Of a stretch of 20,140 nucleotides of DNA, positions 1 to 7,715 are shown in pieces. Numbering within the stretch: the stretch's first letter is position 1; each line of letters begins with the position of its first letter. A program made the translations under genes and the position numbers. The stretch is from a virus: positions 1-20,140 of IMG/VR virus record IMGVR_UViG_3300044972_002146; one strand, given 5' to 3'. The notes under the pieces were generated by a model, which was given only the letters and a program-made list of their open reading frames with translations, was not told the origin of the DNA and made no database searches.

Positions 1-372
1 ATAATCTGTTGATTCCAATACTCGCCTTGCAAACTGTTCTCTTGCCTCAATGTAACTACATTCAGACTTGCTTTTGCAATAATAAAGTATTTCTCTGGAG
101 AAGTTTTCGGTGCCTAGTTTGATTACGTCTGCGGTTAATTCTGGGCTTGACCCGTAGTACTCACGCCAATCTGAATCGATCTTGGTGCGTATCTTCTTCC
201 GCTTTTTGATGCCGTTCTTTTGTTTTACTGTCTTGTACGTTGTTTTACTAAATTTCGCTAATTTTTTGCCTATGTACTTGCGTCCAGATAGATTATTTGT
301 GATCTGATAAACAAATCCCACACATTCTTCAGGCAGTGTCTCAACTGGGGTGTCTTGATAAAGCCATGTCAT
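1..372 (-). CDS. GIY-YIG family endonuclease-like protein, C-terminus cut by window edge
   Basis: The frame is open for 124 codons from an ATG at 372 to the left edge, so the end of the protein is missing. Residues 20-22 (FVY) and 33-35 (YIG) form the two-strand signature of GIY-YIG nucleases, with GRKYIGKK around the second half. Further on, W69 and YYGSS (72-76) and the E109/E112 pair fit the later family positions, where a glutamate binds the metal. Family members cut DNA, either as homing enzymes or in repair and host DNA breakdown. Which role applies here cannot be told, and no intron or interrupted gene is seen beside it. The gene lies 31 bases after the dehydrogenase gene and is probably the operon's next member. 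An AAAGG stretch lies about 17 bases upstream of the ATG, which is far for a ribosome site, so the start is less certain than the family. Confidence 0.8.
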   Translation of the reverse strand, partial: MTWLYQDTPVETLPEECVGFVYQITNNLSGRKYIGKKLAKFSKTTYKTVKQKNGIKKRKKIRTKIDSDWREYYGSSPELTADVIKLGTENFSREILYYCKSKSECSYIEAREQFARRVLESTDY

Positions 373-403: not shown

Positions 404-994
404 TTATGCCTTGTGTTCAAAGTTCACGTAAAAAGTTGCCTCTTCTACCACAGTGTTTGGGGACACTTCAGTAGCGTATCGTATAAAATTGCTGATATCT
501 GTTAATACTATGCCGTTGCCTGTCCAATTAGGGCGACTACGGCTTAATTCTGTATCCAAGCGATCTGGTGTGATCAGCGTGGTTCTAAACTGCACTAAAT
601 TTTGTTTGAATGACTGGGTGCCTTGCCGGCTGGCATGTGCCAGTGCTGTTTTGGCCACACGGTATGTTTCAAACCTAGGTTCAGCGGCAACAACATGTTT
701 TTCGCCCACTGAACCAATGTTGAAAATATGTCCGCTCTTGCCGGCATCTTTCCACTTGTCGTACACAGCCATGTACAAATTTGTTTGCGCAAAGTTAGCC
801 CAGGCCTCTTGCGGAGGACCATCAAATGCATTATTCACAAACACATCATAATTCAAACTTTGTTGAGCAATCAGCTTGACTGCTTGTTCGTTGGTAATGT
901 CCAAGTTTGTGGCTCTGCTTACGCTGTCTGCACCAAACACATCCACTAGGTGCTTGCCCAGTCCTCGATTACCGCCTGTTATTAACATTTTCAT
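404..994 (-). CDS. Short-chain dehydrogenase/reductase (SDR)
   Basis: This is a 196-residue Rossmann-fold oxidoreductase of the SDR family, predicted to use NAD(P)(H). The N-terminal dinucleotide loop is TGGNRGLG (6-13), an LD pair follows at 31-32, and NNA is at 54-56. The catalytic tetrad appears complete: N72, S95 (in NIGS), Y111 and K115 (YRVAK). It is slightly shorter than the usual 230-250 residues, so the substrate-binding C-terminus is reduced. The start was put at 994, where ATG overlaps the TGA of the upstream radical SAM gene (ATGA). A longer reading from 1009 would add five residues and deepen the overlap. The substrate is unknown. Because it is translationally coupled to two radical SAM genes, it may act in the same pathway, but that is inference. 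Confidence is high for the family and low for the reaction. Confidence 0.9.
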   Translation of the reverse strand: MKMLITGGNRGLGKHLVDVFGADSVSRATNLDITNEQAVKLIAQQSLNYDVFVNNAFDGPPQEAWANFAQTNLYMAVYDKWKDAGKSGHIFNIGSVGEKHVVAAEPRFETYRVAKTALAHASRQGTQSFKQNLVQFRTTLITPDRLDTELSRSRPNWTGNGIVLTDISNFIRYATEVSPNTVVEEATFYVNFEHKA

Positions 995-2085
995 CGTGAT
1001 TGATCCCATACTTTTGTAAATTTTTCACCACAGGTCATTGCGCATTCAAATAGTCTGTTGTGGTTGTTGAATGATTCTACTAGATCTTGCCAAAACTCAT
1101 TGGCAAATATTTCTGGCAATGTCTTGTTGTGTATGTTTAGATTGTTTAATCCATAACGTTCTAAAAATTCACGCACTTGGTTTTTACCGCTCACTGTGCT
1201 CAATGAGTTTGCATCAGGCAATGTGCCATCTCTAAATCTTGCATCATACAAATTGTGATTGAAAAAATTACAAGGCAACACCACGCCTTCGGCATTAACA
1301 GCAACTTTTTTTCCAGCCAGTGCATCACATTGTATCGGTGTAGAGTCAAAATATTCTTTGATATTGATATATTTTTTCTTTAACTCAGGCAGGTATTGCA
1401 TACTATGATTTTGATATTTTTCATTGCTGGGTGGCTCCAACACATAATCAGCACCAGCCACAGGCCACGAATTCATTTCAGTCATAGTGTTATGATTTAA
1501 AAATCTTCCAGTCTTTCTAATCAAAACATTGTGAAAGCCAAGTGCTCGACTATACTGCTTGATTAGATCAACTTGATATTCATTGTGTTTAAAAACAATA
1601 AAGTTCCATTGTGCTCGTCCGCCTGCATTGATAAATGCTCGCGCATTGTCGATGACTTTGCTGTATTTTACATTCTTTCTATACAGATGTAAAGTGTCTG
1701 CCAGCCCATCAATACCAAAGTCTATCTGACCGTAGCCGTTCATGATAGCAGCTATTTCTGCCCAGTACTCAGGGTCATGCACTCCTCCATTGGTGTGTAT
1801 GTACAACCACAAGGTAGGGCTCTTGCGCCTAAAGTCACGCAAGATGTCCAAGAAATCTGGATGCATTATGGGATCACCGTAACTGCCACAGAAAAACACT
1901 TGTCGTAACTGTTGACACAATTCAGTGCTGAATGCTTGATCAATTGTCACACGTGGCAAGTGAGTGAGTGGCATGTAGGGATTGATGCCTGTTCCCAAGT
2001 TATTGCGAGGGCACTGAGGACAGGCTGCATTACAATATGTTGTAATCTCAATTTGATATTCAGTGATACTGTTGTAATCAAACAT
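991..2085 (-). CDS. Radical SAM enzyme with twitch/SPASM-like C-terminal cysteines
   Basis: This 364-residue protein carries the radical SAM motif CNAACPQC at residues 18-25 (C18, C22, C25), which binds the 4Fe-4S cluster that splits S-adenosylmethionine. A GSYGDP segment stands in for the usual glycine-rich SAM-contact motif. The C-terminal part has C253-x13-G-x4-C272 and then C348-x3-C352, the spacing expected of a twitch or SPASM domain holding an auxiliary iron-sulfur cluster. Enzymes of this type often modify peptides, proteins or small cofactors. The start was placed at 2085, 8 bases inside the end of the upstream gene. The frame is open further up to 2184, but that adds 33 residues that lie over the neighbour's coding sequence and before the usual short N-terminal lead. 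The substrate is unknown. The gene lies between a small beta-rich protein and a dehydrogenase, suggesting a shared pathway. Confidence 0.85.
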   Translation of the reverse strand: MFDYNSITEYQIEITTYCNAACPQCPRNNLGTGINPYMPLTHLPRVTIDQAFSTELCQQLRQVFFCGSYGDPIMHPDFLDILRDFRRKSPTLWLYIHTNGGVHDPEYWAEIAAIMNGYGQIDFGIDGLADTLHLYRKNVKYSKVIDNARAFINAGGRAQWNFIVFKHNEYQVDLIKQYSRALGFHNVLIRKTGRFLNHNTMTEMNSWPVAGADYVLEPPSNEKYQNHSMQYLPELKKKYINIKEYFDSTPIQCDALAGKKVAVNAEGVVLPCNFFNHNLYDARFRDGTLPDANSLSTVSGKNQVREFLERYGLNNLNIHNKTLPEIFANEFWQDLVESFNNHNRLFECAMTCGEKFTKVWDQSR

Positions 2086-2593
2086 CGGGCAAATTCTCAA
2101 ATATATTTTTGATTTCTTGGAGCACCTGATGATTGGTTTTAAAAATAGTATTGCCCAATTGTGGACCTGGGCGCCTGATGTCAATCAACCATTTCAATGC
2201 AGGAGTTGCAAACTCTAGCACCCATGTGCCATTGTGCCCCAGATACAAATTGGGACATATTGAATACGGTTCGTTGTCGGCTTTGTGCATGTACACAGGA
2301 AAAAACTTACCCAACCATAATTCATTGGTCAACGGGGTATGGTCTAAGTGTATTCCAACTATTTCTATGTGTTTGTCTATGGCAATACTGCCATCTGAGT
2401 TTAACACATGGTCATGCACAGTTTTGCCATGGTGTGTTATTTTTAATTCGTGATTGCCGTCAGTCAGCGGCACGTCAAATTCCAAATTGTCCTGTGCAAT
2501 GCCATCATACAACAACATGTAGTCGTCAATGGTGACCTTGATCAAAGGATCGCCCAGTCTTCGTTCTACAGCAAAATTCAATTGAATTTTCAA
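2078..2593 (-). CDS. Unknown beta-rich protein, TTG start
   Basis: The product has 171 residues and no recognised catalytic motif. Alternating hydrophobic residues through about 1-100, with segments such as NLEFDVPLTDGNHELKITHH, suggest a beta-sandwich of the carbohydrate-binding kind, followed by a short helical tail. There is no signal peptide and no membrane segment. It begins with TTG rather than ATG. An AGGAG ribosome site at 2606-2602 sits 8 bases before this TTG, and the TTG overlaps the TGA of the radical SAM gene by four bases, both of which support the start. Its 3' end overlaps the next radical SAM gene by 8 bases. Its position between two radical SAM enzymes makes it a candidate partner or substrate, but nothing in the sequence proves this. 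It could equally be an accessory carbohydrate-binding or virion protein. Confidence 0.75.
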   Translation of the reverse strand: MKIQLNFAVERRLGDPLIKVTIDDYMLLYDGIAQDNLEFDVPLTDGNHELKITHHGKTVHDHVLNSDGSIAIDKHIEIVGIHLDHTPLTNELWLGKFFPVYMHKADNEPYSICPNLYLGHNGTWVLEFATPALKWLIDIRRPGPQLGNTIFKTNHQVLQEIKNIFENLPDV

Positions 2594-4092
2594 TGCACCA
2601 ACTCCTGAATTCTAGCCAAGCGTTCTTGATACTTGTCCATCAGCGTCTTGAGTTGATCATCGCCTTTCCAGAATGTGTATCCCAACTGTTCACAATGTTC
2701 TTGTACCTGTATCCTGCGCATGATACGTTTTTTATATGTTAATTCAGGATTGGTTGTACACATCCAATCTGCACCTTGCGGCTGCTGATTGTTGATGCCA
2801 ATTATGTTCAGTGTATTGGGCTGATCAAACATGGGTGTGCCTTGCTCTATGGTCAGTGTGGTACCTAAGTTGACACCAATGATGGTACCATCTGCTACAA
2901 ATCGTTGATACTTGGTCAGCAGGTCCAACGATGCCTGATGGTCCTCTTCGGTCTCTGTAGGAAACCCAGTGATCATTAAAAAATAAACCTGCATTTTGTT
3001 TTTGCTGTACTGTGCCATGTTGTAGTCAAGATCGGCTATGGTAAAATCTTTGCGCATGTCAGCCAGCACTCGATCACTGCCACTCTCGATACCCAATACC
3101 ATGGTCTCTGCACCTGCTCGTGCCATGTGTTCAAAATCTATAGGTTTCATAGCACCGGGTCTACGCACAATAGCATGACTGCTGTAGGCAAAATGCCTGT
3201 CAGGAAGATTGTGAGATTCATAATAGTCTATCAATGTTCGATTGAACTGTCGAAAATCTTTCATGCTACCATTGCACAATGCATCGTGAAAAAAGAAATC
3301 TCTCACCCCGTATTGTTCATAGTAGTGAATCATTTCATTGGCCAGTTGTGATCCTGATTTGACTCGGAATCCGCCATGTATAGTAGGAATATCACAAAAC
3401 ACACATTTTCTAATACAACCTCTAGAACTTTCTATTGGTAGCACACCATGTTTACTGCCATTTTTATATGACTGTATGTTGAAATCGCTAAAATCCATCA
3501 CAGGCTGGTCGGCAATGTTGCTACGTTCGGCAAAAAAATCAGTATCTATTCCGGCCACATTGTAGTTGCCTTGTATGATTGCTGGTATAGTAGTTTCGGC
3601 CTCACCGCGTATCCAATGATCAATCAAGCCAAGTTGCTTGAGATAATGTGCAAAAGTTGGACGATCTGCAAAACTTCCATTTTCCTCACGTATGAGTCCT
3701 TGGCCGCCTATGATAACTTCACAAATATACTGTGTTCTAAATTTTTCTAAGAATTTTTCAGTGAATCGTTGTGCTTGCCAACTGAACACACTGATCAACA
3801 ATTGTTTGGGTTGATATGCAGAAATTAATTCAATCCAGTGTTGAATAAGCTGATCAAATTCTATTTGAGCACTTACACTGAGTTGTTTGTTTTTGATAAA
3901 CAAGTGCTCATCAATTTCATTCCATAACACAGGATCACACTGTTGTTGAAATCTTGTGAAATAATCTAAATTTATATCTAGACATTTGCTGGATACGCCA
4001 TGCTTGTTGAATATTTGTTTAATAATAGCAGGAGCAGCCGCAGGACGAACCGCAGCTTTTCTTGGTACTGTTAAAATTATTGCATGAATCAT
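2590..4092 (-). CDS. Radical SAM enzyme with B12-binding-like N-terminal domain
   Basis: This 500-residue protein has the architecture of cobalamin-type radical SAM enzymes. An N-terminal alpha/beta domain (about 1-170) ends in GGQG (129-132) and IRGEAE (161-166), which match the RGEGE region of that class. The radical SAM core follows with CIRKCVFC at 226-233 (C226, C230, C233). The DxHxxG motif that holds the cobalt ligand histidine is not seen, so real B12 binding is doubtful. Members of the superfamily carry out methylations, ring closures and sulfur insertions, and the reaction here is unknown. The gene starts 5 bases after the gp46 stop with no clear ribosome site, so it may rely on ribosomes arriving from gp46. 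It is the first gene of the radical SAM/beta protein/radical SAM/dehydrogenase cassette. The family is confident and the function is not. Confidence 0.88.
   Translation of the reverse strand: MIHAIILTVPRKAAVRPAAAPAIIKQIFNKHGVSSKCLDINLDYFTRFQQQCDPVLWNEIDEHLFIKNKQLSVSAQIEFDQLIQHWIELISAYQPKQLLISVFSWQAQRFTEKFLEKFRTQYICEVIIGGQGLIREENGSFADRPTFAHYLKQLGLIDHWIRGEAETTIPAIIQGNYNVAGIDTDFFAERSNIADQPVMDFSDFNIQSYKNGSKHGVLPIESSRGCIRKCVFCDIPTIHGGFRVKSGSQLANEMIHYYEQYGVRDFFFHDALCNGSMKDFRQFNRTLIDYYESHNLPDRHFAYSSHAIVRRPGAMKPIDFEHMARAGAETMVLGIESGSDRVLADMRKDFTIADLDYNMAQYSKNKMQVYFLMITGFPTETEEDHQASLDLLTKYQRFVADGTIIGVNLGTTLTIEQGTPMFDQPNTLNIIGINNQQPQGADWMCTTNPELTYKKRIMRRIQVQEHCEQLGYTFWKGDDQLKTLMDKYQERLARIQELVH
2602..2606 (-). 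promoter_or_regulatory. Ribosome binding site deciding a TTG start
   Basis: The minus strand reads AGGAG here, with 8 bases to the TTG at 2593. No in-frame ATG or GTG is better placed, so this site fixes the start of the 171-residue gene. It lies inside the last codons of the radical SAM gene upstream. Confidence 0.7.
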
Positions 4093-4097
4093 ATTAA

Positions 4098-6179
4098 TTA
4101 AGAAATGTCTACATCCGTGTTATAACTGGTAAAACCGTTTTCTTTGACAACTTTTAAAATATTTTCCACTCGTCCTGCAAGTTCATCTCTATGGCTTACA
4201 AGCCATATACTCTTGTGGCGTTCACGAGTCATCTTCTTCAACAGCGCCAAACTGGCTTCTACCCCTTGGGTGTCTAGTCCAGAGTCAATCATCTCGTCAA
4301 TGAACAAGATGTTGATGGGGTGATACAAACTTTCCCACACATCACGGAATGCCCAACTCATACTGAGTATCAACCGATTGCGTTCACCACGACTCAAGTT
4401 ATCAAAGTCCAGTTCACGGCCTAGTTCTTCAATGCTCACACTCAAATCGTTTTGGAACTTCACAGTGTGCGGCAATCCAATACGATCCAAATAGTGTGTG
4501 AGTCGTGCATTCAAATAACTCAAGTTTTGATCAATGATCTTTTTACGTACAAAACTGTCTTTGCTGGTCAGCAGTTTCAGCAAGAACTCTTGATGGTCCT
4601 GTACTTTGGTCAGTTCATTGATTTTGTTGTAGTCAACAACTTGTAGAGCCTGTTGTTGCATGTCCTCAATCTGTTCACTGTAGGGATCAGTTTCGGCGTG
4701 TTTGCTGGTGATCTGTTGCAGTAAATTATTTACCTGGGTAGAGTGTTTGATGGCCTGTGCTTCTGTGTCGTAGTGTGTGACAGGCTGTGCGCCCAGATCC
4801 ACAGGCACATAGCCAGCGAGTTGTTTAACATAAGGATCTGCTTCTGCAGATTTGTCTGTAATCTTTTGTTGTATGTTTTCTATTTCACTGTTGTGGCGAA
4901 TAGCTTCAGCTTCAGTTTTATAATATGTTGTGGGCTTGGCACCCAGTTCACCTAGTGTTCGGAGTGCATCGGTATTCTCCATCCACTGACCATTGGTGGC
5001 CAGTGCTTGTAGTGCAGACTCCTGCAGTGCTTGGCGTTTGGTTTCCAGCACAGTTTCGTGGGCACCGTCGTGAAACTCTTGACCACAAGCATAGCACTTG
5101 TGTGCTTCTAGTTCAGCAATCTCTGCTTTGAATTTTTCAACGGTCTTTTGTTCTTTTTTCTCATCCGCTACACATCGTGCAATGAGTTTTTCAAGTTCAG
5201 CAATATCCTTGACCTTTTGATTATACGCAGCCAAGTCTTGGTGTGCTTGTAGTTCTGCCACAATGTCAATATGACTGAGTTTGTTGTAGCTGTCTTGCAA
5301 GGCAGCAATTTCTTTGGTCTGAGTCTGACGCCATGCAGTTTGATATGCCAGCAATCGATCATGTGCATCTGCTTGCTTTTTGCGCTCGTTCCACAAGGCA
5401 AGATCTTTGTGTGCCAGTAACTCTGCTTCAATATTGACTTGAGACAAGTCGTCATATTGACCCACAAGGTAAGCCAAGTCACTGTCGTATTTCTTTTTCC
5501 ACAAGCCTTGACGTCTACGTAGGCTTTCAATTTGTTCTTCGATGCGTTTGTTGGCCTCTTGTACAGCACGTACTCTAAACTCTTCTGAGGTGATAGAATC
5601 TTTTGTGGCTTTGTTGAGTTCCTTGATGCGTTCAGCACGTTCACTCAATACTGTGATGCCCAACAACTGCTCAATAATGGTTCGTTGTTCGTTGGCTTTC
5701 AAACTCAAGAAAGGTTCTGTGTAAGTGTTTAGTGCCAAGATGTGTTTGAACATGTCATGACTCATGCCAAACACATGTTCAATGGCATCTTGTGTTTCAC
5801 GACTATCACCTTGTGCATCGTCTGTGGCAGTTTGTTCTTCGCTGTCTACATAGAAGCGCAACACATTGGGTTTGCGCCCACGTTCAATCTTGTATGTTTT
5901 ACCATTCACAGCAAAGTCAAGACTGACCAACATGCCTTTGCCATTGGTTTTGTTTACTAGATTGTCCTTGCGAATGTTGCTGAGTGCTTGCCCGTACATG
6001 GCATAACTTAGTGCATTGATGATTGTGGTTTTGCCTGTGCCGTTGCGGCTGCCGTCTCCGCCCAAGTCCAAGTTTTCGCCTAGTACCAGGGTAAGGTCTT
6101 GACGGTCAAAGTCAATGCCTTGTGTGGCATTGCCCACACTCATAAAGTTCTTAACAGTGAGATTTTTAATTTGAATCAT
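4098..6179 (-). CDS. 46: gp46-like recombination nuclease ATPase subunit (Rad50/SbcC type)
   Basis: This SMC-like ATPase works with gp47 as the phage Mre11-Rad50 complex, processing DNA ends for recombination-dependent replication and host DNA breakdown. Visible parts are a Walker A loop with SRNGTGKTT at 44-52, a long charged coiled coil (about 180-540), a zinc hook CYAC at 362-365 where two molecules join, the ABC signature LSRGER at 595-600, Walker B NILFIDE at 623-629, the D-loop SGLD at 633-636, and the switch histidine in SHRDE at 662-666. All ATPase motifs are intact. At 693 residues it is well above the 560 of T4 gp46, and the extra length lies in the coiled coil, where each arm carries a tandem duplication. 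It overlaps the end of the upstream SGNH-like gene by 14 bases. No strong ribosome site is visible, so coupled translation is likely. Confidence 0.95.
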   Translation of the reverse strand: MIQIKNLTVKNFMSVGNATQGIDFDRQDLTLVLGENLDLGGDGSRNGTGKTTIINALSYAMYGQALSNIRKDNLVNKTNGKGMLVSLDFAVNGKTYKIERGRKPNVLRFYVDSEEQTATDDAQGDSRETQDAIEHVFGMSHDMFKHILALNTYTEPFLSLKANEQRTIIEQLLGITVLSERAERIKELNKATKDSITSEEFRVRAVQEANKRIEEQIESLRRRQGLWKKKYDSDLAYLVGQYDDLSQVNIEAELLAHKDLALWNERKKQADAHDRLLAYQTAWRQTQTKEIAALQDSYNKLSHIDIVAELQAHQDLAAYNQKVKDIAELEKLIARCVADEKKEQKTVEKFKAEIAELEAHKCYACGQEFHDGAHETVLETKRQALQESALQALATNGQWMENTDALRTLGELGAKPTTYYKTEAEAIRHNSEIENIQQKITDKSAEADPYVKQLAGYVPVDLGAQPVTHYDTEAQAIKHSTQVNNLLQQITSKHAETDPYSEQIEDMQQQALQVVDYNKINELTKVQDHQEFLLKLLTSKDSFVRKKIIDQNLSYLNARLTHYLDRIGLPHTVKFQNDLSVSIEELGRELDFDNLSRGERNRLILSMSWAFRDVWESLYHPINILFIDEMIDSGLDTQGVEASLALLKKMTRERHKSIWLVSHRDELAGRVENILKVVKENGFTSYNTDVDIS
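4647..4946 (-). repeat. Internal tandem duplication in the descending arm of the gp46 coiled coil
   Basis: Residues 412-461 and 462-511 of gp46 are head-to-tail copies with a 50-residue period. Compare LGAKPTTYYKTEAEAIRH with LGAQPVTHYDTEAQAIKH, followed in both by a Q-Q-I-T stretch and a DPY. This is on the other side of the zinc hook from the first duplication. Confidence 0.8.
5217..5474 (-). repeat. Internal tandem duplication in the ascending arm of the gp46 coiled coil
   Basis: Residues 236-265 and 292-321 of gp46 align with an offset of exactly 56 residues, which is eight heptads. Matching pieces include IEAELLAHKDLALWN and IVAELQAHQDLAAYN. The similarity is clear in protein and much weaker in DNA, so the duplication is old. 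The two copies are separated by 26 residues of coiled coil. Confidence 0.75.
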
Positions 6180-6918
6180 TGCGGTTCTTTATTGCTTCTT
6201 GATAATGTTGATACAACATATTTTCCACTGCATTGATGTCTCTAGTGTTGCGCCATGGTAAATTAATATTGGGCATGATGTATTGTTTAATAAAATCAAA
6301 CGCCACCAATGGAACAGGTTGTACTATACCTAAATCTAAATCACAATATTTGCTCTTTGATTTAAAATCACTCATGCCTTTAAACGGCCCGTGGCAAATC
6401 CAATTAGCATCTACTCCAAGGTATTCACTGTTATCAACTAGCATAAAACGATAATCAATTTTATGTTGTTCAAGTAACAGTTTAGCATACTCAATATATA
6501 TTTGCGACCTCAATTGATGTTGTCTGATAGTGATATATTGTTGATGGTATTTTACGACTGCATCTGTCTTGGAGGCACTACTGATCCAAAATTTATCACT
6601 ACCACTGTCTAATACATTATTGCTGTAAACTGGATCACTATCAATAACATTCTGCCAAAATGTAAGATTTGTATGGGCAAGCACTAGATCTAGTCTATTA
6701 GGTTGTGCCCATTGAATTATTACTACATTGGCAGTATTGATGTGTTGTTTTAGTTCGTTGACAATAAACTCGTTCCCGGCACCATACCTGCTGCGGTCAT
6801 TGAGATCCACTCCCTTGGTCATCAGTTGTATAATTTTTGGCCATTTCCAATACTTTGGGTACCAATTAGGGACTGCCATACTGTCGCCATACCCATCGGA
6901 TAGTGTCAATAAATTCAT
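6166..6918 (-). CDS. Unknown protein, possibly SGNH/GDSL-hydrolase-like
   Basis: The product has 250 residues. Its start, LLTLSDGYGDS followed by WYPKYW, resembles block I of SGNH hydrolases, in which the serine after GD is the nucleophile (here S13). A hydrophobic strand VVIIQWAQPNR (about 64-74) sits where the third block is expected. The usual C-terminal DxxH pair is not convincing, so catalysis is unproven and the fold call is tentative. There is no signal peptide or membrane segment. It overlaps the upstream gene by four bases (ATGA) and gp46 by 14. Its DNA is more AT-rich than gp46 and gp47 on either side, suggesting later arrival than the nuclease genes. Related-looking proteins of unknown role are, from memory, common in marine T4-like phages. 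Confidence 0.7.
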   Translation of the reverse strand: MNLLTLSDGYGDSMAVPNWYPKYWKWPKIIQLMTKGVDLNDRSRYGAGNEFIVNELKQHINTANVVIIQWAQPNRLDLVLAHTNLTFWQNVIDSDPVYSNNVLDSGSDKFWISSASKTDAVVKYHQQYITIRQHQLRSQIYIEYAKLLLEQHKIDYRFMLVDNSEYLGVDANWICHGPFKGMSDFKSKSKYCDLDLGIVQPVPLVAFDFIKQYIMPNINLPWRNTRDINAVENMLYQHYQEAIKNRNDSN

Positions 6919-7715
6919 TTGATTAATTTAATAATTTCTTCAGTGTTGGAAAAAAAGTTAGCAAAATCGTTATGTGGAACTTCAATTCCAAATCGCAACC
7001 AAATGTAATAATACACCACGGACTGCGTCCATATATCTGTGGTGTCAGATAAATCGTATGACCATCCAACGCTTACATAATCTATAATTTTTCTTGCGTT
7101 TACCACAGGATCAGTGTATTTGGCGTTGGCAATACGCCATTCATTCCATAGATCCTCGCACCACTCTATTTTTGTAATAGAGTTTAATATGTTAACAAAT
7201 ACTTCATAATCATCATATAAATCATCTATATCTATATCATTCTCGTCTACAGATCGCCATGCATGTCTGAAATTGTGATCACGCAAAAATAAAAAATATT
7301 TTTCTCGTTGTGCCCATGGAGCATCAGTAGACCAATTGTTAACAGGTAATTGTTCTTCAATACTACTGTTCATGGCTTTTTCAATCATAGTTCGAGCAAC
7401 AACAGGCCAGGTATAATCTGTATAACAAATTTTAATAATCTTTGAGTTAGGGAATGTAGACTTAAATTTATCTGACTCGTTGTCGATTCCATTATCTATC
7501 AACACACAATAATTTTTATCGTTTAAAAATTCAATTCCTCCAGGCCAACAATCTTTTGCATATTTAGGAATTACCAAGTCAAGATTGTGGCTGTTGCCGT
7601 TACTGGAAAATTCTAAATTTTTTTTAGGTCTGACAAATCCTTGGCCGCGCAAAGTTAGTATGGCATTAATAAAATGTCCAAACCCGCCCGATGGATACCA
7701 GACACAATAGATCAT
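6915..7715 (-). CDS. Unknown protein with glycine-rich N-terminal loop
   Basis: This 266-residue protein was not assigned to a family. It opens with a hydrophobic strand and a glycine-rich turn (YPSGGFGHFINAIL, 7-20) that looks like a phosphate-binding loop, such as the 5' phosphosulfate loop of sulfotransferases, but no second sulfotransferase motif was found. The middle is acidic (DENDIDIDDLYDDYE) and aromatic residues are frequent towards the C-terminus. It has no signal peptide or transmembrane segment. It is joined by ATGA overlaps to gp47 upstream and to the SGNH-like gene downstream. The coding DNA is clearly AT-rich: 18 of 60 bases at 7201-7260 are G or C, against 29 of 60 at 8221-8280 in gp47. 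This suggests separate origin and insertion between the two nuclease subunit genes. Confidence 0.7.
   Translation of the reverse strand: MIYCVWYPSGGFGHFINAILTLRGQGFVRPKKNLEFSSNGNSHNLDLVIPKYAKDCWPGGIEFLNDKNYCVLIDNGIDNESDKFKSTFPNSKIIKICYTDYTWPVVARTMIEKAMNSSIEEQLPVNNWSTDAPWAQREKYFLFLRDHNFRHAWRSVDENDIDIDDLYDDYEVFVNILNSITKIEWCEDLWNEWRIANAKYTDPVVNARKIIDYVSVGWSYDLSDTTDIWTQSVVYYYIWLRFGIEVPHNDFANFFSNTEEIIKLIK

Follow-up and report, generated by a model that had tools for sequence, protein, structure and literature searches.

Radical S-adenosylmethionine (SAM) enzymes can act with a reductase of their own on sugar-type substrates, as AprD4 does with AprD3 (PMC5461906), and the consulted part of a study of pelagimyophages, which are T4-like, describes radical SAM cassettes that come and go in variable islands (PMC7029224). 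Here we describe a cassette of four genes in a virus record of 20,140 bases (IMGVR_UViG_3300044972_002146; "the window" below means this whole stretch). We call the genes rSAM1, beta, rSAM2 and SDR after their products: two radical SAM enzymes, a small beta-rich protein and a short-chain dehydrogenase/reductase (SDR). An earlier note, made from the sequence alone, had taken the four for a single system. We find instead two separable modules with separate histories, module A (rSAM1 and beta) and module B (rSAM2 and SDR), lodged in one slot of T4-like phages between gp46 and a SegE-type endonuclease gene.

Relatives were collected from viral contigs in five scans (24 loci for rSAM1, 67 for beta, the best 80 of 190 for rSAM2 and the best 80 of 88 for SDR), and three extra scans used other beta-type proteins as queries. 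The scan with the SegE-type gene, covering 80 of at least 595 loci, gave a sample chosen independently of the cassette. Because rows are ranked by similarity to the window, the frequencies below do not equal population frequencies, and since neighbouring genes are mechanical open reading frames (ORFs) labelled by BLAST, small or diverged neighbours may have escaped. A recognisable beta-type neighbour was present for 71 of 75 rSAM1 genes, and the pairing was kept where the module is inverted (two loci) and where it occurs as two mirror copies (four loci). Pairwise distances of rSAM1 and beta were correlated with r = 0.96 (67 pairs; permutation maximum 0.23), and still with 0.92-0.95 among closer pairs, while each of the two gave r ~0.10 against gp46 and 0.16-0.17 against rSAM2. 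The correlation of 0.96, set beside ~0.10 to gp46, indicates that the unit travels between phages as a block; rSAM1 and beta are thus inherited together, independently of the phage backbone, and the beta protein, for which the earlier note had proposed a role as carrier or target, is indeed a dedicated partner.

Module B has its own record of association. A tree of 110 rSAM2-type proteins placed 101 in one clade, in which the SDR was next door in 85 cases and fused to rSAM2 in a single ORF in 16; of the nine remaining rows, eight had no SDR and fell outside the clade. Seen from the other gene, 88 of 90 SDR genes adjoined rSAM2, and the other two lay at contig ends. The fused forms, polypeptides of 568-595 amino acids at 16 loci, make up one or two tree groups, which corresponds to one or two fusion events. 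Distances of rSAM2 and gp46 were correlated with r 0.70, and module B follows the phage backbone more than module A does. Furthermore, rSAM2-SDR occurs widely without rSAM1-beta, and the distances of rSAM1 and rSAM2 gave r 0.16.

In nearly every relative the cassette genes are found in the interval from gp46 to the SegE-type gene. Both borders were present at 66 loci of the SegE-anchored sample. By our own count about 14 of these slots were empty; 37 held rSAM2-type genes (paralogues included), 14 held beta, 11 held rSAM1 and 8 held SDR. This variable occupancy marks a cargo slot and no fixed operon, and the GIY-YIG gene at its border might drive the turnover. Across the lineage we saw the slot empty, or with various radical SAM genes, with pairs of pyridoxal phosphate (PLP) aminotransferase-like genes plus a beta protein, or with other small genes.

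Both radical SAM genes match PF04055 above its cut-off of 29.5 bits (scores in Table 1) and are, as the earlier note had it, two different enzymes. In rSAM1 an N-terminal Rossmann-like domain (~1-190) precedes the radical SAM core (~215-395) and a C-terminal region; its cluster cysteines are C226/C230/C233, and the CX3CX2C motif is invariant in the alignment of 50 relatives. The B12-domain-like N-terminus read earlier into one of the two enzymes has indirect support. Profile matches were to MgmA, OxsB, CysS and TokK, those to OxsB and CysS spanning the N-terminal region, and the NCBIfam matches included B12-type models and methyltransferases of ribosomally synthesized and post-translationally modified peptides (RiPPs), all below cut-off; but rSAM1 gave no Pfam B12-binding match, and no DxHxxG motif was visible in it on inspection. 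Many B12-dependent radical SAM enzymes also lack DxHxxG.

In rSAM2, the CX3CX2C cysteines C18/C22/C25 are invariant in 62 relatives (alignment A4), as are C272, C348 and C352, and C253 is conserved in at least 90%. The arrangement C253-x13-G267-x4-C272, together with C348 and C352, fits the twitch/SPASM pattern C-x(9-15)-G-x4-C, so that on the conserved cysteines rSAM2 has a single auxiliary cluster of twitch/SPASM type, in agreement with the twitch-like site noted before; a four-cysteine twitch form is likelier than a full SPASM domain because the SPASM Pfam score is 15.3 against a cut-off of 21.5. The AlphaFold model (predicted local distance difference test, pLDDT, 94.9) has the twitch/SPASM fold and matched SuiB, BlsE, SkfB, MoaA, anSME, DesII and BtrN with Z 16-20. 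Since this range takes in SuiB, BlsE, SkfB, MoaA, DesII and BtrN alike, the fold is silent on peptide versus sugar chemistry. A sequence search of the PDB with the rSAM2 alignment found nothing significant. A viperin-like identity for rSAM2 was considered and rejected, its Z of 15.7 being lower than those of the sugar and peptide enzymes and a nucleotide-triphosphate context being absent. The SDR scores above the PF00106 cut-off of 26.6 bits, and its active site is intact, as had been seen: N54-N55, S95 and Y111-x3-K115 are invariant and the nucleotide-binding motif TGGNRGLG is near-invariant in 36 sequences.

Neither Pfam nor PHROG gave a match for the beta protein of the window itself, and its relatives have only scattered weak PHROG matches; PDB sequence searches with the beta alignment and with A6, an alignment of beta proteins that have other enzyme partners, gave nothing significant. 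An AlphaFold model from an alignment of 54 relatives (pLDDT 87.8) is a beta-sandwich, for which the best structural matches were structures of carbohydrate-binding module (CBM) family 60, 2xfd (Z 12.0, 103 residues, 2.6 Å) and 2xhh (Z 11.2), against Z of at most 6.8 for unrelated folds. We therefore predict a CBM60 fold from the model. An hhalign comparison with 21 cellular CBM60 domains scored 27.7, against a maximum of 15.7 in 20 column-shuffled controls, at an HH probability of 26%. In Pfam, CBM60 was listed weakly for 3 of 54 beta family members and was the most frequent match in A6 (6/10, best E 0.0056, below cut-off); for PF16841 (CBM60) itself the window protein had no match, and one relative scored 14.8 bits against a cut-off of 28.2.

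Residues P16, K57, D73 and G122 are invariant among the beta proteins (alignment A1), K57 in A6 as well, and the family motif reads [H/T]x[G/N/D]K57...D73[K/R]. The CBM60 motif FxND...DRN, which is present in the cellular CBM60s that we fetched, falls in the hhalign register over HxGK57...D73K, so that the second Asp is kept and the first becomes Lys. We take the first Asp of FxND to be a calcium ligand, and its replacement by Lys57 suggests that calcium-dependent sugar binding by the beta protein may be lost. The partners of the beta protein fall into three enzyme types, one of which adjoined 79 of 80 beta-type genes (the remaining one is at a contig end): rSAM1 for 71, a twitch radical SAM protein (c19) for 4, and a PLP protein of the Aminotran_1_2 family (AT51) for 4, and for 2 more that adjoin rSAM1 as well. 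The P, K57, D73 and N-G loop are common to the beta proteins of all partner classes, and the fixed orders rSAM2-like/c19/beta and AT51/beta/AT51 were recovered again in targeted scans. At five loci, two paralogous AT51 genes flank a beta-type gene in fixed order in the same slot.

The cassette stands at one end of the window (Table 1). The left half, on the minus strand, carries gp55 (late sigma factor), gp47, two unknown genes and gp46, then the cassette and the SegE-type gene, and the right half, on the plus strand, carries virion structural and baseplate genes (gp53-like, gp5-like hub, gp25).

Table 1. The cassette and the two genes that border its slot
Feature	Coordinates	Strand	Match
gp46, recombination exonuclease subunit (SbcC-like); borders the slot upstream	4098-6179	-	PHROG 77, E 2.6e-106
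rSAM1, 500-aa radical SAM enzyme of putative B12-type architecture	2590-4092	-	Pfam Radical_SAM, 51.7 bits
Beta protein, 171 aa, beta-sandwich with CBM60-like predicted fold; TTG start	2078-2593	-	
rSAM2, 364-aa radical SAM enzyme of twitch/SPASM type	991-2085	-	Pfam, 41.1 bits
SDR, short-chain dehydrogenase/reductase of 196 aa; pairs with rSAM2	404-994	-	Pfam adh_short (PF00106), 30.9 bits
SegE-type gene for a GIY-YIG endonuclease, truncated at the contig end; borders the slot downstream	1-372	-	PF19835, 109.7 bits

The genes are joined by overlaps as first described (rSAM1/beta 4 nt, beta/rSAM2 8 nt, rSAM2/SDR 4 nt), and a 5-nt gap separates gp46 from rSAM1. The coordinates given before also stand, except for the start of rSAM2: the listed 2184 is too long, and the start that agrees with relatives, MFDYN at 2085, is the most likely one. 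Ratios of nonsynonymous to synonymous substitution rates (dN/dS) of ~0.05-0.19 against seven relatives indicate purifying selection on each of the four genes, which are real and intact. A scan for T4-type late promoters found no exact TATAAATA, and matches with one mismatch numbered 20 against 12 expected, which is uninformative. Early expression of the cassette, as stated in the earlier note, is a conjecture. Between gp47 and gp46 (6166-7715) lie two genes, of 250 and 266 amino acids, without database matches, and the 266-aa gene is also present in further phages of this lineage. In neighbouring phages this interval holds genes that by eye resemble SGNH hydrolases and sulfotransferases; Pfam gave only one DUF6071 match and one arginine-deiminase match below cut-off for the genes of that interval.

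A genome scan with rSAM2 returned six cellular homologues with 32-35% identity. In a metagenome-assembled genome (MAG) of Deltaproteobacteria, the rSAM2 homologue (35%) directly follows an SDR (27%), with genes for a UDP-glucose/GDP-mannose dehydrogenase, a Gfo/Idh/MocA oxidoreductase, a methyltransferase and a hexapeptide transferase in the flanks (L194), and in a Hyphomicrobiales MAG the homologue lies beside three genes of glycosyltransferase families (L199). Cellular homologues are rare: searching with rSAM2 at E 1e-30 in 150 genomes each of two hit orders and 6 of a third found only the already known genome. Their context leans to sugars. Proteins of the nucleotide-sugar epimerase family (PF01370) are also encoded in several of the large virus records that carry the cassette. 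At another Deltaproteobacteria MAG locus, L196 (8001-12293), two rSAM2 homologues stand in tandem near a 331-aa protein without a Pfam match that looks glycosyltransferase-like by eye (DxD-like motif), and at L195 (7950-10012) a similar 332-aa gene follows a single rSAM2 homologue.

The earlier note had left a cofactor, nucleotide, sugar or protein as candidate targets, and the predicted CBM fold of the beta protein, with the cellular rSAM2-SDR pair in a nucleotide-sugar locus, narrows these to a sugar or glycan. The reading that we favour, to which we give a little less than an even chance, is that the cassette is a sugar- or glycan-modifying set of two modules in a T4-like phage. Under this reading we infer the sugar substrate, the order of steps, the SDR cofactor, the rSAM1 chemistry, carbohydrate binding by the beta protein, the timing of expression and the biological purpose. 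We hypothesize that rSAM2 would cleave SAM and the resulting 5'-deoxyadenosyl radical would abstract a hydrogen from a sugar at a carbinol carbon; this sugar would most likely be bound to a nucleotide or a glycan. On losing water or an electron it would become a keto sugar, and the SDR could use NAD(P)H to reduce this to a deoxy or an epimerised product, in the way that AprD4/AprD3 act on an aminoglycoside. In module A, rSAM1 would be a B12-type radical SAM enzyme, probably C-alkylating or related, to which the beta protein would present bound carbohydrate. The product might alter a glycan of the host surface or of the phage during infection, for example to block superinfection. A wider proposal, possible but on balance doubtful, is an undescribed phage route of glycan remodelling, in which one CBM60-like adaptor is served by interchangeable enzymes (B12-type radical SAM, twitch radical SAM or paired PLP enzymes), presenting a glycan or being itself the target, beside a radical SAM-SDR sugar deoxygenase in fused or paired form.

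Several observations weigh against a sugar role. A clear adjacent SDR was found at only one of the six cellular rSAM2 loci, the cassette itself contains no glycosyltransferase, and the large records offer no more than marginal GT2 matches. The peptide maturases SuiB and SkfB equal or surpass BlsE as matches to rSAM2, whose top NCBIfam match is a maturase of a tungsten-cofactor oxidoreductase (TIGR04317), although at ~61 bits against a cut-off of 380. In the beta protein, the 'FxND' aspartate of CBM60 aligns with a lysine, and the AT51 partner belongs to Aminotran_1_2, outside the sugar aminotransferase family.

The main rival to the sugar reading is that the beta protein is the target: perhaps displayed on the virion or exported, it would have residues modified by the neighbouring enzyme in a RiPP-like manner, with rSAM1 as a protein-modifying enzyme. 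The beta protein is constant beside three unrelated enzyme classes (rSAM1, the c19 twitch enzyme and the two flanking PLP-aminotransferase-like genes) and co-diverges with rSAM1, the closest folds of rSAM2 include peptide maturases, and the NCBIfam matches of rSAM1 include RiPP methyltransferases below cut-off. However, the conserved residues (P, K57, D73 and N-G) are shared by all classes, with no class-specific target residue among them, and a folded protein of 171 residues with no obvious leader or repeat region and the fold of a carbohydrate-binding module is not what this explanation would favour; we regard it as rather unlikely. Phages modify their DNA, some of them with sugars, and the head-to-tail position of the cassette with the replication-recombination genes gp55, gp47 and gp46 would suit hypermodification, whereby a modified base or a nucleotide sugar on phage DNA evades host restriction. 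We hold this to be very improbable, as we recognised neither a DNA glycosyltransferase nor a base hydroxylase or nucleotide kinase among the cassette genes, and a slot so often empty (14/66) would be unexpected for an essential genome modification.

The four genes could also be unrelated morons that share an insertion hot spot between gp46 and SegE, in which case their adjacency would say nothing of a joint function. The slot is hypervariable, empty at times and in many cases filled with only other radical SAM genes, and the histories of rSAM1-beta and rSAM2-SDR are nearly uncorrelated. Within the modules the evidence runs the other way: all 101 members of the rSAM2 clade are paired with an SDR, some by fusion, and the pair also occurs in a cell, while rSAM1-beta co-diverges and stays together through inversion and duplication. 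Thus chance adjacency within modules is ruled out by the neighbour counts, the co-divergence and the fusions, while it is a possible explanation of how the two modules come to lie side by side; for the four genes taken together we find the moron explanation quite improbable.

Each enzyme comes from a known superfamily, and phage cargo or auxiliary metabolic genes are a known category. In the open-access literature we found no description of a phage radical SAM or CBM-plus-radical-SAM system like the pair of rSAM1 and its CBM60-like partner, nor of the rSAM2-SDR fusion or the gp46-SegE slot. A tblastn search of 50,697 phage records found no relative of the beta protein or the SDR, and its radical SAM matches were distant only (Streptomyces phage SF3, Campylobacter phages CP220/F379 and a pelagiphage). 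The cassette is conserved and non-random. The paired radical enzymes of these uncultivated large phages may remodel sugars, a chemistry of which we found no earlier description for phages in the open-access literature. If the sugar reading is correct, phages carry radical sugar chemistry of their own. The natural rSAM-SDR fusions would then give access to a type of reaction for which few enzymes are known, and a radical SAM enzyme obligately paired with the fold of a carbohydrate-binding module would be an architecture not seen before. Both the fusion proteins and the beta protein are conserved and of small size, and they can be tested in E. coli with no need for a cultured phage.

The setting of the cassette resembles that of the pelagimyophage islands in that T4-like phages hold radical SAM cassettes in hypervariable regions; in the part of that source consulted, the island sits in the structural region (VrlC-gp14), whereas the present slot lies between gp46 and SegE, and that part describes neither the modules nor the partner proteins nor the fusion found here (PMC7029224). 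Among single proteins, rSAM1 shares its domain order and CX3CX2C core with the B12-dependent radical SAM enzymes of the OxsB, CysS, TokK, MgmA and PhpK class, but scores far under every family cut-off and has a CBM60-like protein as its partner. The beta protein recalls the calcium-dependent modules of CBM60 and CBM36 in its predicted fold and in the register of the FxND...DRN region. Unlike them it is a stand-alone phage protein of ~150-190 amino acids, carries an invariant Lys at the position of the 'ND' Asp, stays below the Pfam cut-off and is paired with a radical SAM or PLP enzyme where CBM60/CBM36 are paired with a glycosidase. In module B, rSAM2 has the same overall fold and auxiliary-cluster region as the twitch enzymes BlsE, DesII and BtrN, which act on sugars or aminocyclitols (Z 18.7 over 263 residues, 17.7 and 16.1), with only 13-16% identity and with RiPP maturases and MoaA scoring the same. 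Its closest parallel in logic may be AprD4/AprD3 of apramycin biosynthesis, a radical SAM diol dehydratase with an NADPH-dependent reductase: there too a radical SAM enzyme has a dedicated partner, and the proposed order of radical step and reduction matches that of module B. The likeness drawn here is one of pairing and proposed logic, and, unlike AprD4/AprD3, the phage rSAM2-SDR pair is often one fused polypeptide.

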